A DNA stretch of 40,878 nucleotides, from contig JAIOPD010000070.1 in NCBI GenBank assembly GCA_021414115.1, positions 1 to 40,878 on the forward strand. The letters run 5' to 3'. Origin of the DNA: Planctomycetia bacterium. GTDB lineage: Bacteria; Planctomycetota; Planctomycetia; Pirellulales; UBA1268. The translations under genes and the position numbers were made by a program. Under the pieces are notes generated by a model. That model saw only the letters and a program-made list of their open reading frames with translations, did no database searches and was not told the DNA's origin. Each line of letters opens with the position of its first letter. Position 1 is the first letter of the stretch. Below are positions 1 to 13,663 of the stretch, in pieces.

Positions 1-111
1 GCCGGCGCCGACGACGATCGCCGTGCGGCTCGGTTCCTGGCGGGCAATTTCCGTGAGGGCGTGGGCGAGACGGTCTTCGACGGCTGCGTCGGCGATGGTG
101 GCGGTGGTCAT
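1..111 (-). CDS. N-terminus of a probable AMP-forming acyl ligase (partial)
   Basis: Only the first 37 codons lie in the window; the gene runs off the left edge. The ATG at 111 overlaps the TGA of the acyl carrier protein gene (ATGA), so the two are translationally coupled. The visible protein starts MTTATIADAAVEDRLAHAL and continues with a P-x-x-TAIVVGAG stretch. This resembles the opening of acyl-CoA/acyl-ACP ligases and adenylation domains, where an N-terminal helix precedes a strand like 'PDRPALV'. Placement directly behind a carrier protein fits an enzyme that loads the phosphopantetheine arm. The core AMP-binding motifs are outside the window, so the family call is inference from context and a short N-terminus. 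Confidence 0.5.
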   Translation of the reverse strand, partial: MTTATIADAAVEDRLAHALTEIARQEPSRTAIVVGAG

Positions 112-371
112 GAGTGGCCCAGAGCCTGGGTGTAGATCGAGATCAGATCGGAGACGGTGCGGATGCTCGGCCGCGACGGGGCAGGCGACCGGAATGGATC
201 GACGCCCAGGGATCGCTCCAGAAGAACGATCGTCTGGGCGAGATCGAGCGAGTCGAGACCGATGTCGGCGGCCAGGAGCATGGCGGGCTCGAGCGGCTTC
301 GTGTCGCGGCCGGTGTCGCTGAGCACGGTGCGGATCGCTGCGATCACGGCATCAGGCACGGCTGGTTTCAC
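108..371 (-). CDS. Acyl carrier protein
   Basis: An 87-residue protein of normal ACP size. The phosphopantetheine site is the GLDSLDLAQ motif, with the modified serine at about residue 41, followed by the usual amphipathic helix and an isoleucine-rich C-terminal helix. The start is GTG at 371, with AGGAG eight bases upstream. That Shine-Dalgarno lies inside a copy of the last codons of the sugar transferase gene, which shows that the carrier gene originally overlapped that gene's TGA (GTGA). It overlaps the downstream ligase gene by four bases. It is probably a dedicated carrier for an acyl group used in glycan modification rather than the fatty-acid-synthase ACP, because it sits in a glycan operon with its own ligase. 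The substrate is unknown. Confidence 0.85.
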   Translation of the reverse strand: MKPAVPDAVIAAIRTVLSDTGRDTKPLEPAMLLAADIGLDSLDLAQTIVLLERSLGVDPFRSPAPSRPSIRTVSDLISIYTQALGHS

Positions 372-452
372 GGGGCGAACTCCTGCATCGTCGCGGCGCC
401 GGGAGCGGTGATCCCGCGGGGCGACGGAATCGGCCGTCCAAGGGCCTGCGCC
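372..452 (-). pseudogene. Remnant: sugar-transferase tail joined to HicB tail
   Basis: On the minus strand this stretch holds a second copy of the 3' end of the sugar transferase gene (compare 1298-1345). It is fused at a CCCGCGG sequence to a copy of the HicB C-terminal codons (compare 712-750, encoding AQALGRPIPSPRG). Relative to the intact arrangement at 616-910, it has lost about 50 bases between two CCCGCGG direct repeats and most of the hicB gene. It is a decayed tandem copy and supplies the ribosome binding site for the carrier protein gene. Together with the repeat at 463-569 it accounts for the gene-free stretch up to 691. Confidence 0.75.
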
Positions 453-462
453 ATCGCGATTA

Positions 463-569
463 GGAAGCCCGGAGCGCGAGCGACGGGTAGACGGGCGGCG
501 ACCTCGTTGGCGGCGCGGAACCGAACGACACGGCAACCCGTATACCCCGCGCTTGCGCTTGGGGCTTCC
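463..569 (+). repeat. Inverted-repeat (REP-like) element, copy 1
   Basis: A 107-bp element. The left arm begins GGAAGCCCGGAGCGCGAGCG and the right arm ends GCGCTTGGGGCTTCC, so the termini form an imperfect inverted repeat around a variable centre. The copy at 990-1096 is nearly identical, including about 12 bases of upstream flank (CATCGCGATTA) and about 20 bases of downstream flank (CGATCAGAGGCAGAGCAGAG). Confidence 0.9.
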
Positions 570-599
570 CGATCAGAGGCAGAGCAGAGGAGAGCCGGT

Positions 600-667
600 T
601 TAGTTCAGCGGGTTTCACGGGGCAAACTCCTGCATCGTCGCGGCGCCGGGGGGTGGTGATCCCGCGG
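600..667 (-). pseudogene. Duplicated junction of sugar-transferase end and carrier-protein start
   Basis: A second copy of the sugar transferase 3' end with the first codons of the carrier protein (GTG at 618, reading V-K-P-A, then diverging into unrelated sequence). The same junction appears at 371-412 and at about 1275-1345. Only the copy at 371 leads into an intact carrier protein. The copy at 1297 is the true end of the transferase. Confidence 0.75.
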
Positions 668-691
668 CGTGAAAATCTTCTTTTCATCGTG

Positions 692-910
692 TTAGGCGTA
701 CATCAACTTCCCGCGGGGCGACGGAATCGGCCGCCCAAGGGCTTGCGCCGTCTCAATCCATTCGCCGATCACAACCTCGGCATTTGCCAAGGCTTCCTGG
801 TAGGTGGCCCCATCTGCCGCGCAGCCCGGCAGTTCAGGAACCTCCGCGATCATCGCTCGGTCCTGCTCGCTCCAATACAGAATGATTTCGTAGCGGGGTT
901 GCATGTTCAT
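692..910 (-). CDS. HicB-family antitoxin-like protein (orphan)
   Basis: A 72-residue protein starting MNMQPRYEIILYWSEQD. It has the HicB partial RNase-H-like fold signature: a Y-x-V/I-I strand, 'MIAEVPELPGCAADGATYQEALANA' type spacing, and a C-terminal helix ending in GRPIPSP. This is the short form without a C-terminal DNA-binding domain. The ATG at 910 has GGAAG about 11 bases upstream; a second ATG at 904 is possible. No HicA (short dsRBD-like toxin with the catalytic histidine) is visible on either side. It sits inside a duplicated segment between the sugar transferase and carrier protein genes, on the operon strand, so it may simply be co-transcribed. HicB proteins normally neutralise HicA and repress the hic promoter; the role of this solo copy is unknown. 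Confidence 0.75.
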   Translation of the reverse strand: MNMQPRYEIILYWSEQDRAMIAEVPELPGCAADGATYQEALANAEVVIGEWIETAQALGRPIPSPRGKLMYA

Positions 911-928
911 TCTGGCTCTTCTTCCTCT

Positions 929-948
929 GGGCTCGCACCTGCGAGCCC
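929..948. promoter_or_regulatory. Palindrome upstream of the orphan hicB
   Basis: A perfect inverted repeat, GGGCTCGCA-CC-TGCGAGCCC (9-bp arms, 2-base centre), starts 19 bases upstream of the hicB start. Its position suits an operator. HicB systems are generally autoregulated, but this HicB lacks an obvious DNA-binding domain, so the link is inference. Confidence 0.35.
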
Positions 949-989
949 GTAAGCCACTCGTAAGCCTCGCGCGCGCCCCATCGCGATTA

Positions 990-1096
990 GGAAGCCCGGA
1001 GCGCGAGCGACGGGTAGACGGGCGGCGACCTCGTTGGCGGCGCGGAACCGAACGACACGGCAACCCGTATACCCCGCGCTTGCGCTTGGGGCTTCC
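990..1096 (+). repeat. Inverted-repeat (REP-like) element, copy 2
   Basis: A 107-bp near-duplicate of copy 1, including both flanks. It is followed by a doubled GAGGCAGAGCAGAG stretch (about 1100-1130), a small tandem expansion. Confidence 0.9.
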
Positions 1097-1130
1097 CGAT
1101 CAGAGGCAGAGCAGAGGAGGCAGAGCAGAG

Positions 1131-1262
1131 GAACATTACGTCACCGTCTCGAGGCAACCCGTATACCCCGCGCTCGCGCTTGGGGCTTCCCGACCGGAGG
1201 CAGAGCCGAGGGGCATTACGTCACCGTCTCGAGGCAGTCCGTATTCCCCGGCGCTCGCGAGA
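1131..1262 (+). repeat. Two degenerate half-copies of the repeat in tandem
   Basis: Each unit begins CATTACGTCACCGTCTCGAG. The first continues into a right arm at 1158-1190; the second continues into a decayed right arm at about 1238-1260. The left arms are missing. This and copy 2 fill the 386-base stretch between hicB and the sugar transferase gene; I see no gene there. Confidence 0.7.
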
Positions 1263-1296
1263 GTCATAAGTGGGAGCGGGTTTAGTCTCGCTGGCT

Positions 1297-1914
1297 TCAC
1301 GGGGCAAACTCCTGCATCGTCGCGACACCGGGGGCGGCGATCCCGCGGCCGGTGATCGCCTGGAACAGTATTTGAATGATCGTGGCCAGGACGATCCAGA
1401 GATCGGTCAGCGGGGCCGTGATCCGGCTCAGCATTTCGACGTATTGGGCGTCGTATTCAAGCCGGCGGGGCCAATCGACGGCGTTGCGGCCATGGATCTG
1501 GGCCCAGCCCGTGAGGCCGGGACGCACCAAGAGCCGGGTGGCTTGGCGGGCGCTGTAGCGGGAGACGTATCGTAGCGGCAGCGGCCGGGGGCCGACCATG
1601 CTCATGTCGCCCCACAAGACACTGAAGAGCTGTGGGAGCTCGTCGAGGCTGGTCTGGCGGAGGAGACGGCCGAAGAAGGTCAGGCGGTCGGCGTCGGGGA
1701 GAAGTTGGCCGTCGATGGCCGTGGCCTGCGACATCGAGCGAAACTTCGCGATCTGAATCGGACGGCCGTGGAGGCCGGCACGCTCATCGCGGTAGAGAAT
1801 CGGCGGGCCGAGGATCAGGCGGACGGCGGCCGCGATGAGGGCCATCAGCGGGAGGAGGAGGGCGATCAAGAGCAAGGAGGCGATGAGATCGAGGGGCCGC
1901 TTGAGGAACGCCAT
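1297..1914 (-). CDS. Monotopic phosphoglycosyl transferase (PglC-like sugar transferase)
   Basis: 205 residues, the size of the minimal PglC-type enzymes. These transfer a sugar-1-phosphate from UDP-sugar to undecaprenyl phosphate at the inner membrane and so start a glycan chain. The N-terminus has K-RPLDL followed by a re-entrant hydrophobic helix (about residues 8-35). Conserved blocks are KFRSM (57-61), TSLDELPQL with the Asp-Glu catalytic dyad at about 91-92, MSMVGPRPL, and RPGLTGWAQI. The dehydratase and aminotransferase upstream in the operon match the PglF-PglE-PglC logic, so a diamino-trideoxy sugar is a likely substrate (inference). The ATG at 1914 abuts a half repeat element and has no clear Shine-Dalgarno; translation may rely on coupling with the preceding gene, which it overlaps by 49 bases. 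Confidence 0.9.
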   Translation of the reverse strand: MAFLKRPLDLIASLLLIALLLPLMALIAAAVRLILGPPILYRDERAGLHGRPIQIAKFRSMSQATAIDGQLLPDADRLTFFGRLLRQTSLDELPQLFSVLWGDMSMVGPRPLPLRYVSRYSARQATRLLVRPGLTGWAQIHGRNAVDWPRRLEYDAQYVEMLSRITAPLTDLWIVLATIIQILFQAITGRGIAAPGVATMQEFAP

Positions 1915-3014
1915 GCCCGTATACCCGGCGCTTGCGCTTCGGGCTTCCCTTCGGACGGAGACGATTCGACGTTCTTTTCGGAGATGCTCACAAAGGCGAG
2001 GAGGAGGGCTGCGCCGACGAGCACGGTGCCTGCGGCGAGCAAGGTTGCGGTCTTTTGAAGGGCGGGATCGAAGAGCGGAGCGACGGCCACGGCGGCGGCC
2101 ATCGCCGAGAGGCCTCCGTACAGGCTCGAGACGGCGCGATGAGACCAGCCGGCGATCACGAGCCGCTGGTAAAGATGGCTGCGGTGGGCTTCGAAGATGT
2201 TTTCCCGCTTCGACAGTCGCCGTGCGAGCGTGAGGGCGGTGTCAAAAATGAAGGGCCACATGGTGAGGGCTACGATTGGTACCAGGCGGGACGCCTCGTT
2301 GGAGCCAGCAGCGAGCGGCAGCACGGCGATCATGAATCCGCAGAAGGCGCTGCCCACGTCGCCCATGAAAATCCTGGCGGGAGGCCAGTTGCAGCTCAGG
2401 AATCCGAGTGCGGATCCCGCGAACGCAAGCGACACACCGAGCAGCACCGGCACGCCCAACGCCGCTGCCGCCGCGGCGAGCGCCCCGCCCGCGGCGACGG
2501 CCGTGATTCCCGCGATCCCGTCGATGCCGTCCATGAAGTTGAAGGCGTTGGTCATGCCGACGATCCAGAGCAGCGTAAGCGGCCACGCGGCGACGCCGAG
2601 GTCGATGCGGCCAAACGATCCCACGCCGACTTCATCCAGCGGCCCAAGGGCGGCGACCGCGGCGATGGCGGCTGCGAGGTGCACACCAAACCGCACCCGA
2701 TTGCTGACAGGCCGAATGTCGTCCCGCCAGCTGACCGAGGCGATGGCGAGGGAAGCGGCCACCATCGCAACGATCGGCTGCCAAGACTCTGGTTGAAGGA
2801 TCGCGGACAGGATCGCGGCGCCTGTCGTGCCGCCGACGATCGCCAAACCGCCGCCGCGGGGAGTGACGCGGTGGTGGCTGGAGCGGGAGTTGGGCCGGTC
2901 CACCACCCCCCGGGATCCCGTCCAGCCGATGAGTCGCGACGTGATGGCTGCCGACAAGGCCAGAGCGATCCCGAACCAGAGCGCCCCCAACGCGATAGGC
3001 TGCCAGAGCGTCAC
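1866..3014 (-). CDS. WecA/MraY-family glycosyl-1-phosphate transferase
   Basis: A polytopic GT4-type phosphoglycosyl transferase of 382 residues with about ten hydrophobic segments. It joins a sugar-1-phosphate, typically GlcNAc-1-P, to undecaprenyl phosphate. Visible family blocks are VDRPNSRSSH and TPRGGGLAI near residues 38-58, NAFNFMDGIDG with the Mg-binding aspartates (about 155-165), FMGDVGSAF (about 216-224), and a cytoplasmic loop with EAHRSHLYQRL. The start overlaps the aminotransferase stop (ATGA at 3011-3014). From about residue 356 the sequence (GKPEAQAPGIRAW) is encoded by a half repeat element and then overlaps the next gene out of frame, so the native C-terminus was probably shorter by some 25 residues. 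Having both a polytopic and a monotopic initiating transferase in one operon is notable. Confidence 0.9.
   Translation of the reverse strand: MTLWQPIALGALWFGIALALSAAITSRLIGWTGSRGVVDRPNSRSSHHRVTPRGGGLAIVGGTTGAAILSAILQPESWQPIVAMVAASLAIASVSWRDDIRPVSNRVRFGVHLAAAIAAVAALGPLDEVGVGSFGRIDLGVAAWPLTLLWIVGMTNAFNFMDGIDGIAGITAVAAGGALAAAAAALGVPVLLGVSLAFAGSALGFLSCNWPPARIFMGDVGSAFCGFMIAVLPLAAGSNEASRLVPIVALTMWPFIFDTALTLARRLSKRENIFEAHRSHLYQRLVIAGWSHRAVSSLYGGLSAMAAAVAVAPLFDPALQKTATLLAAGTVLVGAALLLAFVSISEKNVESSPSEGKPEAQAPGIRAWRSSSGPSISSPPCS
1917..1949 (+). repeat. Half repeat element at a gene junction
   Basis: Only the right arm is present (CCCGTATACC ... CGGGCTTCC). It lies inside the 3' end of the WecA-like gene, encodes part of its C-terminal tail, and ends three bases before the sugar transferase start codon. 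Confidence 0.8.
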
Positions 3015-4294
3015 GCCACCTGCTTGGCGTTGGCGATCACGTCGCAGACGTCACTCACGACCGCCTCATCAACATGGGCGCCGATCGGCAGCGCGAGGCT
3101 GCGGGCCGCGAGCATGTCGGTCGCGGCGAGCGGCTTCATGCGATCGTGGAAGTGTTCGTAGGCTGTTTGACGATGGCAGGGCGGATCGTAGTAGGCACGC
3201 GTCTCGATTCCCCGGGCGGCAAGCAAGCGGCGAAGAGCGTCGCGGGTCATGCCGAATCGCGTGGGATCGATCGTGATCGAAAAATCCTTGTGGCTCGATC
3301 GGGCCCCCGGCATCGTCTCGACGAATCCGATGCCCGGTAGACCGCTGAGTTCGCACCGATAGAGATCGGCGAGCTGATTACGACGAGCCGAGACCTCATC
3401 GAGAATTCCAAGCGAAGCGAGTGCCGTGGCCGCGCTCAACTCGGGCATCCGGCCATTGACCCCCGGAAACAGAGCGTCGTACGAGCCGTCGTTGCCGTAT
3501 TCGCGGCCCAGCCGCACGAAATGGGCGAGGCAATCGCAGTTGGTGGCGACGATGCCACCCTCGCCGGCGACGAGGAGCTTTGTGGGCGAGAGGCTGAACA
3601 CCTGCGCCGTCGCTCCGGCACCCACCGGGCGACCATGCACGCTCGCGCCGAAGCCATGGGCCGCGTCAATGATCAGCGGCAGGCCGTGCTCGGCCGCGAC
3701 CGCCTCGAGCGCCGGGATATCGCAGGGATTGCCGAAGTTGTGGCAGGCCGCGATGGCGACGGTGCGGGGAGTGATCGCCGCGGCGACGGCCTGCGGCGTG
3801 ACATTGGTCGTGCGCGGATCGACTTCGATGAAGACCGGCCGGAGGTTGTTCCAGACGATCGCAGCCGCGGCGGCGAGGAAGGTAAAACTCGGCATGATGA
3901 CCTCGCCGAGCGGCTCGGAGCGATTACCAGTGCGGGCCACGCCGAACCGCGAGAGCGGCTCCATCGTCGCCACGGCACACGCGTCGGTGGCGGCCCGGCG
4001 GCTGCGGCAGCTGCCGGCCGAGAGATCGACCGCCCGGTAGACGAGCATCAGCCCGATCGTGCAACTGCTGACGGCCACGGCATGCCGCACGCCGAGTCGT
4101 TTGGCGATCGCCTGCTCGAGCCGTTCGCAATAGGGGCCCTTGGTGAGCCGGCCGCTCCGAATGATCTCATCGAACGCGGGCTGCAGAGACTCTGCCGACG
4201 GCAACGCGGGCCGCACGAACGGCACCCGGATTCCCGACCGGGACGGATCACCGGTGTGGATCTCTGGAATCATCTGAAAGAGTTCACGCTTCAT
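3011..4294 (-). CDS. DegT/DnrJ/EryC1/StrS-family sugar aminotransferase with an insertion
   Basis: A PLP-dependent nucleotide-sugar aminotransferase of 427 residues, longer than the usual 360-390. It would convert the 4-keto product of the neighbouring dehydratase into a 4-amino sugar (PglE-like step). Landmarks are VPFVRPALPS at the N-terminus, SSCTIGL in the PLP-phosphate region, IIDAAHGFGA with the pyridine-binding aspartate near 210, and SLSPTKLLVAGEGG with the Schiff-base lysine near 239. Residues of about 92-130 (rich in Arg, Ala and Ser) interrupt the family's continuous 'L-x-x-GDEVI-x-PSFTF' segment. The extra length is in frame and contains no stop. The gene overlaps the WecA-like gene by four bases and follows the dehydratase gene after 27 bases. 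The start lacks a strong ribosome site. Confidence 0.9.
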   Translation of the reverse strand: MKRELFQMIPEIHTGDPSRSGIRVPFVRPALPSAESLQPAFDEIIRSGRLTKGPYCERLEQAIAKRLGVRHAVAVSSCTIGLMLVYRAVDLSAGSCRSRRAATDACAVATMEPLSRFGVARTGNRSEPLGEVIMPSFTFLAAAAAIVWNNLRPVFIEVDPRTTNVTPQAVAAAITPRTVAIAACHNFGNPCDIPALEAVAAEHGLPLIIDAAHGFGASVHGRPVGAGATAQVFSLSPTKLLVAGEGGIVATNCDCLAHFVRLGREYGNDGSYDALFPGVNGRMPELSAATALASLGILDEVSARRNQLADLYRCELSGLPGIGFVETMPGARSSHKDFSITIDPTRFGMTRDALRRLLAARGIETRAYYDPPCHRQTAYEHFHDRMKPLAATDMLAARSLALPIGAHVDEAVVSDVCDVIANAKQVA

Positions 4295-4321
4295 GGCCGC
4301 AGCCGCCTTCCCGCTTCGACG

Positions 4322-6256
4322 TCACTTCGCATGCGTCCGCTGAGTAGGCAACGGCTCCGGCACAGCCCGGCCAGCCTCGCTGGAATACTCGGGAACGAGG
4401 TCACGGAGACGCGCCCGAACCACCTCTGGCCGCTCGTCGATCACATCGGACAGTTCGTCGAAGACGGCCTCGACGACCGTCAAATCGGCAGGCCTGTGGT
4501 GGGCACAGAAGACCTTCGTGTGACGCGTGGCCACCCGCCGCTCTTCCTCGAAATAGAGTTCCTCGAAGAGCTTTTCACCAGGCCGAAGCCCCGTGAACAC
4601 GATCTCGATGTCGTCTTGCTCGAGGCCGGAGAGCGAGATCAGGTCGCGGGCGAGGTCTACGATCTTCACGCTTTCCCCCATGTCGAGCACGAAGATCTCT
4701 CCGCCATCGCCCATCGTAGCGGCCTGGAGCACGAGTTGGGATGCTTCCGGAATCGTCATGAAGTAGCGCTCGATTCCGGGATGGGTGACCGTGATCGGGC
4801 CGCCCCGCCGAATCTGCTCCTGGAACGTCGGCACGACGCTGCCGTTGCTCGCCAAGACGTTACCGAACCGCACCACGATGAACTTCGTCTGCGACACGCC
4901 GGACAGCGCCTGCAGAAACCGCTCGGCAAGCAGTTTCGAGCAGCCCATGACACTCGTCGGATTCACCGCTTTGTCGGTGGAGATCGCGACGAACTCCCGG
5001 ACACCGTGCCGATCGGCGAGCCGGGCGAGGAGCCGCGTGCCGAAGACGTTGTTTTTGATGGCCTCGGCCGGGTTCCATTCCATCATCGGGACGTGCTTGT
5101 GGGCCGCGGCATGAAAGATCACCTCAGGCGAGTAGGTCGCCAGGATCTGCTCCATCCGCCTCTCGTCGGTGATGTCGGCGACGAGGGGTTCGAAGTCGGG
5201 CCGGGGGCTCCGGCGGGAAAACTCCTGTTCGATGAGGAAGAGAGAGTTTTCGGCCTGCTCCACCATGAGCAGCGTCTTCGGCTTGAAGCGGAGGATCTGC
5301 CGGCAGATCTCCGACCCAATCGAGCCGCCCGCGCCGGTGACCATGACCGTGCGGCCTTCGATGAGCGTGGTGATGGCGGTGTCGTCGAGCCTCACGGGCT
5401 CGCGGCGCAGCAAGTCTTCGATTTCGACGGACCGCAGTCTGATGTGTGAAAGATCTTTTTTGTCGCTCAGCAGTTCGTCGATCCCGGGGAGCACCTTCAC
5501 CGTGACGCCCATGTCGGTGCATTCGTCGAGCAGGCGACGAAATGCCTTGCCGGTGAGTTTGCCGGACTGCACGATCACCTCGTCGACGCCGCGGCGGGCC
5601 GCCTCAGCGGCCGTCTGATCGATCGCGCCCAAGACCTCGAAGCCGCCAACCCGCGTGTGCTTGAGCCGGAGGTCGTCGTCCACAAAACCGGTGATGAAAT
5701 ACGGCTCGTGAGAAGCCGCCATGAGGTTGCGGGCGATCATTTCGCCCGCTTCATCGGCGCCCACGATGAGGACCGACTTCGCGACCTTGCCGGTGAAATA
5801 GGGGCGGAGTTCCTCGCGGACGCTTCGCCAGACGGTGCGGAGGCCACCGACGCACATGATCGTGGCCGCCCAATCGAGCAAGATCACGCTCCGCCGCACG
5901 CGGGGCAGCCACGGCACCCAGCCGGTGGACAACACCAGGCTGTCGAATGCGGCGAACAGGAGCATGGAAAGAGTCGATGCCCAAAGCAACGTGGTGAGAT
6001 CGCCGAAGGCGACCCGGCCCCACGACACATGGCACAGGCCCAGCGCGTAAAACACCACCATCTTCACGGCCACGACAAAGATCACCGTCGCGCCATACGT
6101 CTCCAGCCAACTCTGATCGAGCGTGAAATCGCTGCGGATGAAGAACGCGATGAAAAACGCTGCGGCAAAGACAACTGCGTGTACAGCGAGCAGGACCAAA
6201 GCACGGCGACTCACGCTGCGGAACGCGATCGACGCTTTGGGCGCAGGCAGGTTCAT
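4322..6256 (-). CDS. Membrane-bound nucleotide-sugar 4,6-dehydratase (CapD/FlaA1/PglF family)
   Basis: 644 residues, full length for the family. Four hydrophobic helices occupy roughly residues 18-140. They are followed by a CoA-binding-like Rossmann fold (SVLIVGADEAGEMIA, about 161-175) and then the catalytic short-chain dehydrogenase domain with the NAD motif TGAGGSIG (about 307-314). The active-site region reads STDKAVNPTSVMGCSK. The Tyr of classical SDRs is replaced by Met with the Lys four residues on, as in WbpM/PglF-type UDP-GlcNAc 4,6-dehydratases. GLRPGEKLFEE, a sugar-nucleotide loop, is present near the C-terminus. The product would be a UDP-4-keto-6-deoxy sugar for the downstream aminotransferase. 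AGGAAG lies six bases before the ATG. Upstream is the NusG-like gene, after 32 bases. Confidence 0.92.
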   Translation of the reverse strand: MNLPAPKASIAFRSVSRRALVLLAVHAVVFAAAFFIAFFIRSDFTLDQSWLETYGATVIFVVAVKMVVFYALGLCHVSWGRVAFGDLTTLLWASTLSMLLFAAFDSLVLSTGWVPWLPRVRRSVILLDWAATIMCVGGLRTVWRSVREELRPYFTGKVAKSVLIVGADEAGEMIARNLMAASHEPYFITGFVDDDLRLKHTRVGGFEVLGAIDQTAAEAARRGVDEVIVQSGKLTGKAFRRLLDECTDMGVTVKVLPGIDELLSDKKDLSHIRLRSVEIEDLLRREPVRLDDTAITTLIEGRTVMVTGAGGSIGSEICRQILRFKPKTLLMVEQAENSLFLIEQEFSRRSPRPDFEPLVADITDERRMEQILATYSPEVIFHAAAHKHVPMMEWNPAEAIKNNVFGTRLLARLADRHGVREFVAISTDKAVNPTSVMGCSKLLAERFLQALSGVSQTKFIVVRFGNVLASNGSVVPTFQEQIRRGGPITVTHPGIERYFMTIPEASQLVLQAATMGDGGEIFVLDMGESVKIVDLARDLISLSGLEQDDIEIVFTGLRPGEKLFEELYFEEERRVATRHTKVFCAHHRPADLTVVEAVFDELSDVIDERPEVVRARLRDLVPEYSSEAGRAVPEPLPTQRTHAK

Positions 6257-6288
6257 GATTGCTTCCTATGCAAACCTAAGTTGCAAAC

Positions 6289-6861
6289 CTAGAGCCGTTC
6301 CACATCGACGTCTTCAAGCTCGATCGAGGCGCCCTGGTTGAGGAACCGCACTGCGATGAGCAGCCGCTCCTGACCACGCCGCTTGACGACCGTGCCCTCC
6401 ATGCCCCGCATCGGCCCACTTCGTACGCGGACCGACTGGCCTGGTTCGAGCCGCGCCTCGGGCGTGAGCGGTTTGTCGGTGTCGATGAGCCGCTTGATCG
6501 CCCGCAGGTCGCTGACAAGCATTCGCTCGTCGGCGATGGAAAGCCAGCGGGCCACCGTGTTGGTGGCCAGAGCGGCCCGGCGCTGCTCGTCGTCGATTGG
6601 TGCGAAGACGTAGCCTGGGAAGAGTGGGACGAATGAACTGCGGACGCGGCCGCCGGCGGAATGCAACCGCCGCTTGACGAGCGGGGAGTAGAAGGGCACG
6701 CCAGCCGCCTCGAGCTTCCGCATGAGGTCTTTCTCGCGGCGGGCGAGCGTGTAGAAGGCGACCCAGTGAGCCGCCTCAGCCGCGCCACGGCCCGTGATCC
6801 CGCCCGCCTCGTCGAGCAGGTCGTCCGGGAAGATATCCCGCTGCTTGGGCAAGATGGGCAT
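6289..6861 (-). CDS. NusG/RfaH-family transcription antiterminator
   Basis: 190 residues with an NGN domain (HWVAFYTLARREKDLMRKLEAAGVPFYSP at about 32-60, then SSFVPLFPGYVFA) and a C-terminal KOW motif (EPGQSVRVRSGPMRGMEGTVV). Specialised NusG paralogs of the RfaH/UpxY/LoaP type ride with RNA polymerase and allow transcription through long polysaccharide operons. Its place as first gene of the minus-strand glycan operon, apart from ribosomal genes, argues for such an operon-specific factor rather than housekeeping NusG. The ATG at 6861 has no clear Shine-Dalgarno. A 10-base direct repeat TGCAAACCTA (6269-6278 and 6282-6291) covers its stop codon and the spacer to the next gene. Whether its own operon or the divergent exporter genes are its target cannot be read from the sequence. 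Confidence 0.88.
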   Translation of the reverse strand: MPILPKQRDIFPDDLLDEAGGITGRGAAEAAHWVAFYTLARREKDLMRKLEAAGVPFYSPLVKRRLHSAGGRVRSSFVPLFPGYVFAPIDDEQRRAALATNTVARWLSIADERMLVSDLRAIKRLIDTDKPLTPEARLEPGQSVRVRSGPMRGMEGTVVKRRGQERLLIAVRFLNQGASIELEDVDVERL

Positions 6862-7091
6862 AGGGCGGAGTTTCGACGCGAGGTCATTGATTGACGGCGA
6901 TCAGATGGGCTGCGGCAGGCCGCGCAAACTCCGTTCTCCTGGGTGACAAGGCAATCCCTGCCCCCAGTGAGAACCGACGCGACCAACCGCTGAACTCCCG
7001 CAAGTTTACGTCTGCAAAAGGGCGGTGTCGCCCGCCCGGCACCATTCTCGGGGGAATCCCGCAGACCGCCCCTTTCCCGATCGGAAGGAAG

Positions 7092-7104
7092 GGCAAAGTT
7101 TGCC
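7092..7104. promoter_or_regulatory. Operator-like palindrome in the divergent glycan promoter region
   Basis: GGCAAA-G-TTTGCC is a perfect 6-1-6 inverted repeat 58 bases upstream of the exporter start. It lies in the 301-base spacer (6862-7162) between the divergent antiterminator and exporter genes. A related GCAAGTTTACGTCTGCAAA stretch lies at 6999-7017. The spacer has no convincing ORF and must hold promoters for both operons; I cannot place -35/-10 boxes with confidence. Confidence 0.4.
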
Positions 7105-7162
7105 GGTTGAATCTGCCGATGACAGCGATTGCAACGACCCTGCCGGTCGTAAGGAGTTTGCC

Positions 7163-8545
7163 ATGCCCAGCGACACGACTCTTCGAACCCGCGGAAAAAC
7201 CGCCTGGAAATGGTCGCGGCTGCGGCTCGGGCGGGGCTTCTGGACGGGCCGTGTGGGCAGGTTTTTGGCGATTGCGGCCGTGATGGCCCAGGTGACGGGC
7301 TGCAACATCTATGGCCGGCCCCAGCGGTCGACCACGCAGCAGGTGATGCTCGACGCCCAGTGCCCGACCGAGCCGGAGCGGATGCCCGCCAAGGAACTGG
7401 CGAAGATCACGCTCCCGGCCTACGTGATCGAGCCACCGGACATTCTGCTCATCGACGCGCTGCGGGTGGTGCCCAAGCCGCCGTTCAAGATCCAGTCGTT
7501 CGACACGCTGCAGGTGATCGTGGAGGGCACGCTCCTCGAACAGCCGATCAACGGGCTGTATGTGGTGGAGCCGGGCGGAATGCTCGACCTTGGACCTTCC
7601 TACGGCAAGGTGATGGTGGGCAATCAGTCGCTCGAAGAGGCCCAGGACGCCGTCTTCAAGCACTTAAAGCGGGTGCTCAAGGAGCCACAGGTGTCGCTCA
7701 CGCTGGCCCAGGCAGCCGGCCAGCAGCAGATCGCCGGCGAGCACCTCGTAGGCCCCGACGGCACGATCAATCTCGGCACCTACGGCAGCGTGTTTGTGAC
7801 GGGCCTAACTCTCGACGAGGCCAAGGTGGCGATCGAAAAACATCTCGGCAACTTTCTCGACGCGCCGCTCGTGAGCATCGACGTGTTTGCGTACAACTCG
7901 AAGGTCTATTACGTCGTGACCGAAGGCGCCGGCTTCGGCGACAACATCGCCCGCTTTCCCGTCACCGGCAACGAGACGGTGCTCGACGCGATCTCCCAGA
8001 TCAACGGCATTTCGCGGCTCTCGAGCAAGGATATGTGGATCGCCCGGCCGGCCCCGTCGGGTGTGGGCTGCGATCAGATCCTGCCTGTCGATATCGAGGC
8101 GATCATGAAGGGGGGCTCCACGGCCACCAACTACCAGATTCTGCCGGGCGACCGGGTGTTCATCGCCCAGGACCAGTGGATCGCTGCGGACAGCATCATC
8201 GGGAAGATCACGGCCCCGTTCGAGCGTATCTTCGGCTTCACGCTGCTCGGCACGAGCCTCGTGCAGCAGATCAACCGCTTCCCGTTCGGTTTCAACCCGA
8301 ACTTCGGCGGGGCCTGCTGGGTGGCTCGCGAGGTGTATGGTGTGGAAAACCCGCAGTGGATGCTCTTCCGGGCTTGGTTGCTGACGGAAGCCCCGGTGTG
8401 GCTGCGGGAGACCTACCTGGCCCACGGCGAGGAGTTTGCCGCCTGGATTCACGACAAGCCGGTCATGAGGGCTGTTGTGAAGGCCCTCATGGATCAGGTG
8501 GTGGAGCGGTATGAGGCGGAGATGCCGAAGGCAGCGGCCGAGTGA
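7163..8545 (+). CDS. Polysaccharide export lipoprotein (Wza/SLBB family) with CFI-box-like C-terminus
   Basis: 460 residues. The start at 7163 is set by AAGGAG at 7151-7156. The N-terminal signal (about residues 20-47) ends in the lipobox VTGC, so the mature protein is probably an outer-membrane lipoprotein. Next comes the polysaccharide export domain (YVIEPPDILLIDA), then SLBB-type repeats (HLVGPDGTINLGTYGSVFVTGLTLDEA; YYVVTEGAGFGDNIARFPVTGNETVLDAI; LPGDRVFIAQD). The last 75 residues form a separate module beginning ACWVAREVYGVENPQWMLFR. This looks like the 'CFI-box-CTERM' tail found on assorted surface proteins (family recalled, not searched). Wza homologues form the outer-membrane pore for capsule and EPS. 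The gene is divergent from the glycan operon it probably serves. Confidence 0.9.
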   Translation: MPSDTTLRTRGKTAWKWSRLRLGRGFWTGRVGRFLAIAAVMAQVTGCNIYGRPQRSTTQQVMLDAQCPTEPERMPAKELAKITLPAYVIEPPDILLIDALRVVPKPPFKIQSFDTLQVIVEGTLLEQPINGLYVVEPGGMLDLGPSYGKVMVGNQSLEEAQDAVFKHLKRVLKEPQVSLTLAQAAGQQQIAGEHLVGPDGTINLGTYGSVFVTGLTLDEAKVAIEKHLGNFLDAPLVSIDVFAYNSKVYYVVTEGAGFGDNIARFPVTGNETVLDAISQINGISRLSSKDMWIARPAPSGVGCDQILPVDIEAIMKGGSTATNYQILPGDRVFIAQDQWIAADSIIGKITAPFERIFGFTLLGTSLVQQINRFPFGFNPNFGGACWVAREVYGVENPQWMLFRAWLLTEAPVWLRETYLAHGEEFAAWIHDKPVMRAVVKALMDQVVERYEAEMPKAAAE

Positions 8546-8588
8546 TTGATCCACGATCCATGACCCGGATACATTCGAGGGTGGCGGG

Positions 8589-9059
8589 ATGATGCGACCA
8601 CGAGGTTTCCAGATGATCCGACGAACCGACAACTTCCTTGGACGTGGACTGGTTCTCGCCGCCATGGTGACGGTTGCCTCGTCGCTTGGGAGCCAAGAGG
8701 CAGAGGCCCAGCCGGGGAGGTCGACTTATTCCGCTGGCGCACGTGCCGGCGGCCAGGGCGCGGACCTTCCCTTCTCGAGCACTTACCGACGGCCCACGGT
8801 GAGCCCCTACATGCAACTCCAGCAGCAGGGCTACAACCCGCTCCAGTCTCAAAACATTTACCAGACGATGGTTCAGCCCCAAGTGCAGCAGCAACAGCAA
8901 CAGATCGAGCAACTGAGCCAGCGACGGCAGATGAGCAATCTGCAAAACCAGGTGCAGCAGATCGGCAGAGACACCTCGAACCGCCAGATCGATGAGTCGA
9001 TCCGCCCAACCGGCCACCGGGCGACGTATATGAACTACTCACACTTCTACGGCCGGTAA
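8589..9059 (+). CDS. Small secreted Gln-rich protein, function unknown
   Basis: 156 residues with a positively charged N-terminus (MMRPRGFQMIRRTDNFLGR), a hydrophobic segment and an Ala-Glu-Ala cleavage-like site near residue 40, so probably exported. The middle (about 85-125) is rich in glutamine (QVQQQQQQIEQLSQ) with heptad-like hydrophobic spacing, suggesting a coiled coil. The C-terminus is Tyr-rich (TYMNYSHFYGR). It begins 43 bases after the exporter stop on the same strand and is probably co-transcribed, so a role in export or envelope structure is plausible. I recognise no family. A second ATG at 8622 would still leave a signal peptide. Confidence 0.7.
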   Translation: MMRPRGFQMIRRTDNFLGRGLVLAAMVTVASSLGSQEAEAQPGRSTYSAGARAGGQGADLPFSSTYRRPTVSPYMQLQQQGYNPLQSQNIYQTMVQPQVQQQQQQIEQLSQRRQMSNLQNQVQQIGRDTSNRQIDESIRPTGHRATYMNYSHFYGR

Positions 9060-9070
9060 GGCCTCCGTCA

Positions 9071-9186
9071 GGAAGCCCGGAGCGCGAGCGACGGGTAAAC
9101 GCGTCGCATCGAGGCAACGCCGCGCGGCTCCGCACACGTCGATTTCGAAGCCACCCGTCTACCCCGCGCTCGCGCTTGGGGCTTCC
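9071..9186 (+). repeat. Inverted-repeat (REP-like) element, copy 6
   Basis: 116 bp, left arm GGAAGCCCGGAGCG, right arm ending TTGGGGCTTCC, with a centre containing GGCTCCGCACACGTCGATTT that is shared with copies at 10889 and (diverged) 11413 and 15466. It lies directly after the small secreted protein gene. Confidence 0.9.
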
Positions 9187-9238
9187 CGCCGGAAAGACAG
9201 CGCGCGGGAAAATCCCCGTTGGTCGTAGAATGCCGGGC

Positions 9239-10219
9239 ATGAAACTGCTCGTCACTGGCGCCCGCGGGTTTGTCGGTCGCCGCCTTTGCGAATGGCTCGC
9301 GGCGCACGGGCATGAGGGCTTTGGCACGGGCCGCGAGCCCCCGCACGACTTACCCACGGGATGGAGAGGCGCGACTCGCCGCTCGGTGCTCGAGCCGGTT
9401 GAGGCTCCGCAGGCAGCACTCGCGGACGTGATGGCGGTCGTGCATCTCGAGGTGAAGCAGCATGTGCCGCGTCCCACGCGAGCCGACATCGACGACTTCA
9501 CAGCGGTAAACGTCGGCGGCACGCGGGCATGGCTCGATTGGGCGAGCCGGCGCGGCGTGGGCCGCTTCGTGTTTCTCAGCTCGATCAAGGCCGTGGCGGC
9601 AGAGGACGGGCCGATGACGGAGGCCGGCCCGCCCGAACTCACCACGCCCTATGGCCGATCGAAGGCCGAGGCCGAAGCCGCCGTTCGCGAGTGGGCGGCC
9701 GCGGATTCATCACGCTCCGCCGTGATCCTTCGGCCGGCACCGGTCTACGGTCCGGGAAACGAGGCGAACCTCGCCGCGTTCGTGCAGCAGATTCTCGCGA
9801 GCAAGCCCTGCTTGATCGGTCGCGGCGAGACGCGGAAGTCGATCGTGGCACTCGACAACCTCTGCGCGGCGATCGAGTTTGCGACCGCAAGGACCGCGAG
9901 CGGGGGCGAGGTTTTCAACGTCTCGGACCGCGAGACACCGTCGCTGGAGGAACTCGCCGCCATGATCGCCGAGCTGGCCGGGGCTCCGCCCCCAAAGCGC
10001 ATCCCAGCATGGCTCGCGACTCTCGCGGCGCCCGTCGGCGACGCGATCGAGGCGACCACCGGCCGCGAGTTTCCACTCACCACCGCAAGGTTGCGAGCGA
10101 TCCGGGAAACCACGGTGTTTCCATGCGAAAAACTCGTGGCCGCGGGTTTCGTGCACCCGCAGACTACCCGCGAGGGGCTTACCGAGATGATTGCGTGGGC
10201 GAAGTCGCAACGTGCGTGA
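9239..10219 (+). CDS. NAD-dependent epimerase/dehydratase family protein
   Basis: 326 residues, extended short-chain dehydrogenase. The NAD motif TGARGFVG lies right at the N-terminus (MKLLVTGARGFVGRRL). The catalytic region has SSIKAVA and PYGRSKAEAE (Tyr-x3-Lys with the upstream Ser), and RPAPVYGPG follows in the substrate domain. I chose the ATG at 9239 because it gives the standard family N-terminus; an ATG at 9230 adds three residues. Substrate is not evident: it resembles the broad UDP-glucose 4-epimerase/NAD(P)-binding group, and nucleotide-sugar use is likely but not proven. The gene stands alone between repeat element 6 and a convergent secreted-protein gene (stops six bases apart). 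Confidence 0.85.
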   Translation: MKLLVTGARGFVGRRLCEWLAAHGHEGFGTGREPPHDLPTGWRGATRRSVLEPVEAPQAALADVMAVVHLEVKQHVPRPTRADIDDFTAVNVGGTRAWLDWASRRGVGRFVFLSSIKAVAAEDGPMTEAGPPELTTPYGRSKAEAEAAVREWAAADSSRSAVILRPAPVYGPGNEANLAAFVQQILASKPCLIGRGETRKSIVALDNLCAAIEFATARTASGGEVFNVSDRETPSLEELAAMIAELAGAPPPKRIPAWLATLAAPVGDAIEATTGREFPLTTARLRAIRETTVFPCEKLVAAGFVHPQTTREGLTEMIAWAKSQRA

Positions 10220-10224
10220 CACCG

Positions 10225-10839
10225 CTACGGGGCGAGCATCTCGTCGTGGCGGATCGCGGCACGCTTCGCGGGCTCGATGAGCCCCGCCCGCTGCCAACCG
10301 CGGATCGCGAGGCTCTGCGCCGAAATCGCGAGGTCGCGGCGGCCGTCGCCCGCGGCCCGCGCCGCCACACGCTCCGCCACCTCGGCCAATCCCGCGGCCC
10401 GCTGCGGCGACAGGATCCGCAGCGGGATCTCCTTGAGCGCGCGGTATTCGTCTTCCACCGCATCGAACTCGTAGGTGGCCGACGCAAGCACGATCGCCCG
10501 GTCGAGCGTGGCCGCATTGCCCGACGCAGCCGCCATCCGTCGGGCCTCCGCCAGCATGAACCATTTGACGCCGCGATCCTCCTCCGTGACCGCCGCCTCA
10601 ATCAGCGCGTCGGCGACGAGCGCCGCCCCGGCCGTCGTGCGACCACGCGCCAAAAGGCCCGGATAGCGGCGGTCGAACTCGGCCCGGGCGTCTACCAAGG
10701 CCCGAGCCGAAGGCGGAGCCTCCAGCGACGCAGCGGCCGGGAGCTGCCGCATCGAGGGTCGCGACGGCGGAGACTCGGCGAGGGGCTCCGCGACGGCCGT
10801 CGCAGCGACGAGGGCGAAGAGAAGCGAGAGAAGACGCAT
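10225..10839 (-). CDS. Secreted helical protein, function unknown
   Basis: 204 residues with a clean signal peptide (MRLLSLLFALVAATAVAEP, cleavage probably after Ala-Val-Ala). The mature part is Ala/Arg-rich and predicted helical, with DARAEFDRRYPGLLARGRTT and later AERVAARAAGDGRRDLAISAQ stretches. This style is common among planctomycete secreted hypotheticals. I recognise no catalytic motif. It converges with the epimerase gene. Its start region (10825-10854) recurs 27/30 identically at 11041-11070 on the far side of repeat element 7. Confidence 0.7.
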   Translation of the reverse strand: MRLLSLLFALVAATAVAEPLAESPPSRPSMRQLPAAASLEAPPSARALVDARAEFDRRYPGLLARGRTTAGAALVADALIEAAVTEEDRGVKWFMLAEARRMAAASGNAATLDRAIVLASATYEFDAVEDEYRALKEIPLRILSPQRAAGLAEVAERVAARAAGDGRRDLAISAQSLAIRGWQRAGLIEPAKRAAIRHDEMLAP

Positions 10840-11070
10840 GATCCAAGCGTATCACGCGGGCAAGGGAATGCGACGCGCGGGCGGGAAAGGAAGCCCGGAG
10901 CGCGAGCGACGGGTAGACGCGTCGCTTCGAGACAACGCCACGCGGCTCCGCACACGTCGATTTCGAGGCTACCCGTATACCCCGCGCTCGCGCTTGGGGC
11001 TTCCCGGCCCGACGGCGGAGCTGCCACTACGCATTGCGAACGAGAGGAGACCCATGATCAAAGCGTATCA
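10825..11070 (+). repeat. 30-bp direct repeats flanking a REP-like element
   Basis: The 30 bases at 10825-10854 (covering the start codon of the secreted-protein gene) match those at 11041-11070 in 27 of 30 positions; the shared core is AAGCGTATCA after ATGATC. Repeat element 7 (10889-11004) lies between the two. This resembles the duplicated gene ends around copies 1 and 2. Confidence 0.75.
10889..11004 (+). repeat. Inverted-repeat (REP-like) element, copy 7
   Basis: 116 bp, very similar to copy 6 across arms and centre. It sits in the 259-base spacer between the secreted-protein start and the second HicB-like gene. No other gene is visible in that spacer. Confidence 0.9.
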
Positions 11071-11098
11071 AGCCACCAACGGAAAGACGGCCGCTTGC

Positions 11099-11314
11099 TC
11101 ATGGCACCGCGATTTCAAGATCTCTGATACCGATGAACGTCGTGTTCTCCCCCGGAGCCTCTCCTGGAAGGCACGCCTCGATAGCCTCGCGAATGTTCGC
11201 GATGGCCTCGTCCATCGTGACGCCGTAACTCCGACAACCCTGAATCAAAGGGCAATCGACGATGAAGACGCCGTTCGCGTCTTGTTCGATGACGATCGGG
11301 AAATGGCGAGTCAT
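11099..11314 (-). CDS. HicB-family antitoxin-like protein (second orphan)
   Basis: 71 residues starting MTRHFPIVIEQDANGVFIVD. It has the HicB pattern: an N-terminal strand pair, C-P-x-I-x-GCRSYG in place of the usual LPGCxSxG, then TMDEAIANIREAIEACL and a short tail. GGAG lies eight bases before the ATG at 11314. No hicA gene is visible next to it. Repeat elements lie on both sides (10889-11004 and 11352-11528). It is not a recent copy of the HicB at 692-910, as the two proteins differ through most of their length. Function as an antitoxin is uncertain without a partner. Confidence 0.75.
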   Translation of the reverse strand: MTRHFPIVIEQDANGVFIVDCPLIQGCRSYGVTMDEAIANIREAIEACLPGEAPGENTTFIGIRDLEIAVP

Positions 11315-11351
11315 GGGGCGATCTCCGGAGAGTACGTTTTTGGAGTCTACC

Positions 11352-11385
11352 ACCCGTATACCCCGCGCTCGCGATTGGGGCTTCC
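11352..11385 (+). repeat. Half repeat element
   Basis: Right arm only (CACCCGTATACC ... GGGGCTTCC), 37 bases upstream of the orphan hicB start. Confidence 0.8.
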
Positions 11386-11412
11386 CGGCGGGAGGCGGAC
11401 CGATGGTGGCAA

Positions 11413-11528
11413 GGAAGCCCGGAGCGCGAGCGACGGGTAGACGCGTGGCTTCGAGGCAACGCCACGAGCCGCCGCGAACGTCGATTTCAAGGCTACGCGT
11501 ATACCCCGCGCTCGCGCTTGGGGCTTCC
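11413..11528 (+). repeat. Inverted-repeat (REP-like) element, copy 9
   Basis: 116 bp with both arms. It lies downstream of the EF-G stop, separated from it by the stem-loop at 11536-11562. Confidence 0.9.
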
Positions 11529-11535
11529 CGAAAGC

Positions 11536-11562
11536 GGCGTTGCTTCAAGGCGAAGCAACGCC
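11536..11562 (-). terminator. Stem-loop downstream of the EF-G gene
   Basis: A perfect 11-bp inverted repeat (GGCGTTGCTTC, 5-base loop, GAAGCAACGCC) lies 10 bases after the EF-G stop codon. There is no following T-run on the minus strand, so this is either a hairpin-only terminator or an mRNA-protecting stem. Confidence 0.55.
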
Positions 11563-11572
11563 ACGCCGCGAA

Positions 11573-13663
11573 CTACTTCGCGGCTGCCAACTCGGCCTTC
11601 TTCCGCTCCTCGACGATTTCCCGCTGGATGTTGCCCGGAGTCGGCTTGTACTTGCTGAACTCCATCGTGAACACACCCTGGCCCTGCGTCATGCTCCGCA
11701 GGTCGGTCGAGTAACCGAAGGTCTCGGCCAGCGGCACCTCGGCGACGATCGTGGACGTGTTGCCCACCGTCTCCGTCGAGATGATCAGGCCGCGACGCTT
11801 GTTGAGCTCGCCCGTGACCGCACCCTGAAAGTCCGCCGGGACCTCGACCTCCATCTTCATGATGGGCTCGAGAAGCACCGGCTTCGTGGCCAGGAAGGCC
11901 TCGCGGAAGCCGGCCCGGGCGCACGTCTGGAACGCCATGTCGCTGGAGTCGACGTCGTGGTAAGAGCCGTCTTCCAGCGTGGCCTTCACGCCCACGATCG
12001 GGAAGCCCGCGATCGGACCCTTGCCCAGCACCGCGCGGAACCCCTTCTCAACCGACGGGATGTATTCGCGGGGCACACGGCCGCCGACGACTGCATCCTC
12101 GAACTCGAAGCTCTCGGTCGCATCCTCCGGGAGCGGCTCGAGATGGCCGATGATGTGGGCGTATTGGCCCGAACCACCGGTCTGCTTCTTGTGTTTGTAG
12201 TCATAGGGCGTGCCACGGGTCGGGGCCTCGCGGTAGCTCACCTTCGGAGCGCCCACTTCGACCTCGACCTTGTATTCACGCTTGATCCGCTCGACGTAGA
12301 TGTCGAGATGCAACTCGCCCATGCCGGCGATCAGCGTCTCGCCCGTTTCCTCGTCGGTGGCCACGCGGAAGGTGGGATCCTCGCGGGTGAACCGCTGGAG
12401 CGCCTTGCCGAGCTTGTCGAGACCGTCGCGATTGGTCGGAGTGATCGCCATCTTGATCACCGGCTCCGGCACGAACATGTTTTCGAGCGTGCAATACTTG
12501 GCCTCGGCGGAATAGGTGTCGCCGCTCGCCGCGTCGACGCCCATCACCGCCACGATGTCGCCGGCCTCGGCGGAGTCGATCTCCTCCCGCTTGTCGGCAT
12601 GCATCCTCACGATGCGGCTGAACCGCTGCTTCTGGCTCGTGCGCTGGTTGATGTAGGCCTCGCCCTTCTTGAGCGTGCCCTGGTAGAGCCGCATGAACGT
12701 GAGCTGGCCATAGGGATCGTCGACGATCTTGAAGGCCATCGCCACGAGCGGCTTCGACGGATTCGGCTCGAGGTCGAACTTCTCGTCGGGGTTGGACCAG
12801 TTTTTCGCGACCACCTTCCGCTCGAGCGGATTGGGCAGATAGCGGACGATGGCGTCGAGCAGCAGCTGCACGCCCTTGTTTTTGTAGGCCGAGCCGCAGA
12901 ACACCGGCGTGATGCTCTGGTTGGCGACGGCCGCCTTCACCACGGTGTGGATCTCGTCTTCCGTGGGGACCTCCTCCGAGAGGAGCTTCTCCATCAGCGA
13001 GTCGGAATACATCGCGAGGGCTTCGAGCATCGCATGCCGGGCCTCGGCGGCGGCTTCCTTGAGGCCGGCCGGGATCTCCTCCATGCGCACGGTCTCGCCG
13101 TTGTCGCCGTCGAAGTAGGCGGCCTTCATCGTGACCAGGTCGATCACGCCCTCGAGCTTGTCTTCCTTGCCGATCGGAATCTGCATCCGGACGGCGTCGC
13201 AGCCGAGCTTGTCGCGGAGCTGGCCGACCACGCGGTCGTAGTTGGCGCCGGTGCGGTCCATTTTGTTGACAAACGCCAGGCGGGGCACTTTGTAGCGTTT
13301 CATCTGACGGTCGACCGTCATCGACTGGCTCTGCACGCCGCCGACGCTGCACAGCACGAGGATCGCGCCGTCGAGCACGCGGAGGCTCCGCTCCACCTCG
13401 ACGGTGAAGTCGACGTGGCCCGGGGTGTCGATGAGGTTGATGTCGCAGTCGCCCCACCTCACGCTCGTGGCGGCGGATGTGATCGTGATGCCGCGCTCAC
13501 GCTCGAGGTCCATGTAGTCCATGGTTGCCCCATCCCCATCGCCCTTCACTTCCTGGATGCGATGGATTCGCCCGGCGTAATAGAGGATGCGCTCGGAGAG
13601 CGTGGTCTTGCCGGAATCGATGTGGGCCGAAATGCCCATGTTGCGGAGCTTGGTCAGTTCCAT
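11573..13663 (-). CDS. fusA: Translation elongation factor G
   Basis: 696 residues, standard length. GTPase motifs are visible: [15 protein letters not shown] (P-loop, residues about 14-28), [10 protein letters not shown] (switch I), DTPGHVDF, and NKMD. Domain II ([16 protein letters not shown]) and domains III-V follow ([40 protein letters not shown]). EF-G drives ribosomal translocation and, with RRF, recycling. The P-loop AHIDSGKTT carries Ser where canonical EF-G has Ala (AHIDAGKTT); this occurs in some EF-G lineages, including paralogs, so I cannot say whether this is the only EF-G. The start at 13663 gives the usual N-terminus ([16 protein letters not shown]). No ribosomal-protein or tuf genes lie nearby. 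Confidence 0.95.

Follow-up and report, generated by a model that had tools for sequence, protein, structure and literature searches.

Of 90 novel junctions in E. coli, 22 were located within REP sequences according to the part of the study considered here (PMC3161906), and REP or REPIN elements have been described in Planctomycetes as well (PMC3733652, likewise in part). As far as these portions of the two sources go, the locus reported here shares with the REP-associated tandem duplication and template switching of E. coli direct duplications, small deletions, short repeats at the junctions, REP-rich DNA and complex nested products. Unlike the E. coli case, it spans less than a kilobase, has become fixed in a natural genome and has decayed in part, and the source region of its primary junction, between a ligase and a dehydrogenase, is missing (PMC3161906). 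With REP and REPIN elements it has in common a short palindrome present in hundreds of copies, the occurrence of inverted pairs, and reiterated clusters with flanking DNA (PMC3733652). Unlike these systems, neither this draft genome (95% complete) nor the REP-rich sister genome G017 gave a match to a companion transposase gene (Y1_Tnp, RAYT, PF01797), and the likeness concerns general REP features. The third related system is the type II toxin-antitoxin pair HicAB. The locus contains a hicB-like gene (PF15919) and relatives possess hicA (PF07927) with a stop/start overlap, whereas here only hicB is whole and hicA is reduced to a relic of 15 codons. A description of this locus was not found among the listed literature on REP elements or Planctomycetes, orphan HicB, tandem duplication, toxin-antitoxin relocation, template switching or translational coupling.

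The locus is situated close to one end of the window, by which we mean the whole stretch of 40,878 nucleotides that was analysed. Its genes belong to a sugar-polymer operon of a planctomycete-like bacterium and are encoded on the minus strand in the order transferase, spacer, acyl carrier protein and AMP ligase:

1297-1914, minus strand: sugar transferase (Bac_transf, PF02397, E 7e-53), intact open reading frame; its stop codon TGA (1299-1297) lies in the first of the junction copies described below
108-371, minus strand: acyl carrier protein, intact, with an ATGA overlap with the ligase
1-111, minus strand: AMP ligase, 5' end only; the contig stops after 37 codons

The assembly is a draft of 144 contigs and the window begins at a contig end. 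Ligase sequence past codon 37 and the dehydrogenase were searched in this assembly and not found. In the region 1866-1952 a REP sequence (1916-1948) makes up part of the last codons of a glycosyl transferase 4 gene, which extends over the sugar transferase start.

The search for the transferase covered 60 genomes, including the genome of the window, and gave a match in 49. Besides the locus of the window we inspected 24 loci, 20 from the family (L012-L031) and four of nine order-level loci that had been fetched. The transferase stop and the carrier start share 4 nt (GTGA or ATGA) in 16 of the 20 family loci, among them the sister genome and L023, which the motif had missed and which was read by eye. 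The remaining family loci have a spacer of about 28 nt (L020), an in-frame fusion (L029) or no adjacent carrier (L021 and L025), and the motif found no carrier at this place in the four order-level loci. In G017, whose transferase is 82% identical, the junction reads GTGAAGCCAGCC and the spacer is absent; among the loci examined the long spacer is restricted to the genome of the window. These data confirmed a GTGA-type overlap as the ancestral state of the transferase-carrier junction, as proposed in an earlier note on this DNA, and also its loss from this genome, where the long spacer now splits the junction. Two other arrangements were seen at this junction. In L111 (G029, 1303-2421 in operon orientation) transferase and carrier seemingly form one reading frame, and in L110 (G030, another genus, about 2172-2259) a C-terminal extension of the transferase is seemingly encoded by repeats, with the ATGA overlap with the carrier retained.

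In the window, a stretch of 59-60 nt comprising the transferase end and the first carrier codons is present three times. Sequence comparison and alignment identified the following elements in and around the spacer:

1290-1349, minus strand: junction copy 3, the true transferase tail with carrier codons 1-4 (GTGAAGCCAGC), followed by the insert
608-667, minus strand: junction copy 2, a pseudo copy of transferase tail and carrier start
361-419, minus strand: junction copy 1, the duplicated transferase tail with AGGAG, then the true carrier GTG at 371-369
412-455, minus strand: fragment of a second hicB copy, flanked by deletions of 230 and 49 nt
956-1259, minus strand: composite element of palindromic repeats, made up of a truncated REP, a left arm, a REP, a REP pair and a right arm, in the place of most of hicA
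448-592, minus strand: second copy of the REP pair block, identical to 975-1119 at 144 of 145 positions

Identity amounts to 55/60 between junction copies 2 and 1, to 53/59 between copies 3 and 1 and to 83/101 between copies 3 and 2 if the left edge of the insert is counted in. A global alignment revealed that the unit 607-361 (247 nt) differs from the unit 1289-608 (682 nt) by the loss of 155, 230 and 49 nt, apart from a few substitutions and single-base gaps. The 230-nt deletion took the 5' part of hicB and left a match of 41/44, and the 49-nt deletion sits between two 8-nt repeats (CCGCGGGA). The earlier note had described a junction in triplicate within a nested duplication, deletions in the carrier-side unit, a loss of about 50 bases between two CCCGCGG repeats and the absence of most of hicB from the deleted unit; all of these features were recovered, and its coordinates were right within about 10-20 bases. 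Self-comparison of 428,647 bases of the genome, in which direct repeats had to reach 30 nt and 80% and to lie within 2.5 kb, gave no other non-repeat duplication that was equally long and similar, and therefore the duplication of the junction exceeds chance. Two derived states, GATCACC and AAACC, are common to junction copies 1 and 2 and absent from copy 3 and from G017, which have ATCGCC and AAGCC; thus copy 3 and the ancestor of the other two arose in a first duplication, and copies 1 and 2 split in a second. Head-to-tail copies in such a nested order are the pattern of a tandem duplication followed by deletions between short repeats.

The coupling of transferase and carrier through overlapping codons would be lost in this arrangement. 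As the earlier note had also stated, the duplication preserved the AGGAG site of the carrier: it is located 8 nt ahead of the GTG and is now provided by the duplicated transferase tail, so that the carrier could be started independently. The carrier gene is under constraint, with a dN/dS of 0.11 against G017.

The REP palindrome gave 594 matches in this genome and none in the reversed control, in line with the short high-copy palindromes and inverted pairs of REP and REPIN elements. The arms of the composite element recur elsewhere in the genome. The REP pair folds into a single long hairpin (z -5.9), which is the type of structure tied to rearrangement junctions in the E. coli study, in the part considered here (PMC3161906). 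Between the two units, the REP blocks differ at 0/141 positions versus 6/98 for the flanks (Fisher p 0.004), or at 1/145 versus 6/98 (p 0.018) if a mismatch at the block edge is counted. Since the blocks are more alike than the surrounding DNA, it is probable that their homogenisation followed the duplication. In the other genomes of the genus the number of REP matches was 363 in G017, 61 in G014, 47 in G010 and at most 6 in the other 18.

Three further elements concern the origin of hicB:

692-910, minus strand: hicB-like antitoxin gene, intact, 72 aa, 77-81% identical to hicB of G008, G010 and G018
907-951, minus strand: 3' end of hicA, the last 15 codons (YGLAGASPEEEEPE, then stop), identified by a codon-level test; the stop overlaps the hicB start
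1260-1289, minus strand: possible relic of a ligase stop (TAAAC) and a hicA start (ATGACTC), suggestive only

The gene at 692-910 passes the cut-off of the HicB-family antitoxin model PF15919 (E 2.4e-07) and has no NCBIfam match. Among 72 family genomes, including the genome of the window, a hicB of at least 77% identity is present only in the latter and in G008, G010 and G018; two further genomes match at 39-40%. A broader contig scan gave 80 loci, of which one (L130) was used for the present locus; the others matched at 53% identity or less and belonged mostly to other phyla. In G008, G010 and G018 the close hicB is located in the same operon, between ligase and dehydrogenase and after hicA. 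The gene preceding hicB in G008 is HicA by Pfam (PF07927), and hicA of G018 appears shortened by eye. The hicA relic of the window is identical to YGLASGSTGEECDE of G018 at 9 of 15 positions, stop included, and shows the same stop/start overlap as in the relatives. Early alignments of the relic at the nucleotide level gave weak or non-significant results; significance was reached in the codon-level test, for which the stop/start overlap served as anchor. Among the 1155 stop-ended 15-codon windows in the six frames of the 40.9-kb window the relic ranks first, with a summed score of 78 versus 35 for the runner-up. Because hicB follows hicA in the same operon of three relatives and a hicA end precedes hicB here, hicB was most likely displaced from inside the operon, with loss of its toxin partner. 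The capture of an orphan gene, which the earlier note had suggested, was not supported.

Directly after the four carrier codons of junction copy 3, the pattern TAAAC-12 nt-ATGACTC is similar to what G008 and G010 have at the ligase stop and the hicA start. The similarity gave p 0.005 against G018 and was not significant against G008 or G010, and in unbiased scans of the relatives unrelated windows outscored it. The pattern occurs only once on both strands of the window, although it was picked after being seen. The hicB gene itself looks conserved (pN 0.12 with pS near-saturated against the relatives), a comparison that covers the time before the move too. Since the nearby hicA is reduced to 15 codons, hicB at this locus can hardly work as part of a toxin-antitoxin pair.

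The gap between ligase and dehydrogenase is a favoured slot for hicAB-type genes. In 8 of 17 relatives with both genes located, the distance from the ligase to the SGGS motif of the dehydrogenase is just 20-32 bp. Among the loci L094, L095, L096 and L099, those of G008 and G010 contain hicAB in this gap. G018 has the shortened hicA and hicB plus, by eye, a second hicB/hicA-like pair, and G015 has a different hicB-like gene with a REP-like core. In the sister genome G017 hicB was not found, and hicAB therefore was either lost in G017 or gained after the split. The transferase tree groups the genome of the window with G017 (100/99), and the bearers of hicB are scattered.

We regard as probable a tandem duplication of the carrier-ligase-hicA-hicB segment inside the operon, followed by deletions, replacement by REP elements and a second, decaying local duplication. 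The ancestral order would have been transferase, carrier (with the 4-nt overlap), ligase, hicA, hicB and dehydrogenase. A tandem duplication may have copied a segment that began about 50 nt before the end of the transferase and reached just beyond hicB. Carrier and ligase would then have been deleted from the upstream copy, in which four carrier codons now abut the apparent ligase end and hicA start, and REP palindromes would have taken the place of most of hicA, of which the last 15 codons remain beside an intact hicB. For the later steps the alignment is direct evidence: the unit of REP, hicB and junction was duplicated a second time, and the second copy shed 155, 230 and 49 nt, where the 49-nt loss took place between the 8-nt repeats. 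The statistics show that the two REP blocks remained or became identical while their flanks diverged. The likely agent would be template switching or slippage prone to occur at palindromes. Several observations count against this course of events. The ligase is missing after codon 37, which leaves the hicAB copy predicted further downstream out of view; the relic of ligase stop and hicA start is weak, with significance against one of three relatives; hicB is missing from G017; and 104 of 108 REP clusters with usable flanks, in 1,167,849 bases of this genome, are without strong flank duplication, so REP elements do not usually act in this way. For the same reason the idea that REP elements cause flank duplication as a rule was rejected. 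A preliminary survey had comprised 50 clusters in 429 kb.

Alternatively, a mobile cassette of REP and hicB could have been inserted at the transferase-carrier junction with a target duplication of 59-60 nt, the operon neighbourhood in the relatives being coincidental or due to a shared target preference. Direct target copies indeed border the insert, and flank repeats scoring at least 34 occur in 4 of the 108 clusters versus 0.1 expected from mispaired flanks. These four are the present locus, the window locus 10825-11084 and two outside the window (one an exact match of 20 nt, the other a match of 31 nt). At the second window locus (region 10225-11528) a REP pair is bordered by a 44-nt stretch that repeats, at 36 of 44 positions, the start region of the gene that follows (10225-10839), and a further hicB-like gene (PF15919, 11099-11314, minus strand) has REP elements on either side; thus both window loci with flank duplication adjoin hicB-like genes. 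At the corresponding site of G017, between fusA and that next gene, a single REP pair and no hicB-like gene is present, and the second hicB-like gene has no match above 53% identity in the 71 other family genomes. However, most clusters are without such repeats, and the repeats of the four cases vary in length (20, 31, 44 and 60), unlike the fixed-length target duplications of a transposon insertion. Moreover, apart from its own fragment the hicB DNA has no other copy in the genome, and the hicA end is placed exactly as in a native pair. Just two of four hicB-like hits in 1.17 Mb lie near REP elements, both in this window, and these are too few for a general association, which was rejected. 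A cassette insertion is therefore unlikely. It is quite doubtful, too, that REP palindromes and hicB-like genes would jointly drive a recurring local copying of neighbouring gene boundaries in this lineage, with two such assemblies within 11 kb (361-1349 and 10825-11314), one of them moving an antitoxin inside its operon while destroying the toxin.

The spacer could also be a selected regulatory leader in which REP hairpins and re-created ribosome sites tune the expression of the carrier. The AGGAG and GTG kept ahead of the carrier, the very stable fold of the REP pair and the constraint on the carrier gene would agree with this idea. Nevertheless we consider it very improbable: such a leader is present in none of the 20 family loci examined, the units are decaying through deletion, window positions 1-12000 gave no Rfam match, and the constraint on the carrier is explicable without a leader. 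An assembly artefact, in which reads of several places were merged via repeats, might be suspected at a contig end in a draft with REP copies in hundreds, but is very improbable, since a simple mis-join would not yield the substitutions among three junction copies and the three separate deletions between the units, hicB and junction sequences are found nowhere else in the assembly, and the hicA end sits where the operon of the relatives predicts.

Taken together, the processes at this locus are known, and the record of the rearrangement is real, well preserved and unusually legible, and ordinary in kind. With tandem duplication inside the operon as the preferred explanation, the inferred steps yield testable predictions on the missing downstream part of the operon. 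The locus provides a case, readable step by step, in which an overlapping and coupled gene pair of an operon was pulled apart. A lone hicB of this type could pass for a captured orphan, and the relatives reveal that here a native neighbour has most likely been displaced. The locus thereby shows how an antitoxin may remain solitary once its toxin has been lost.
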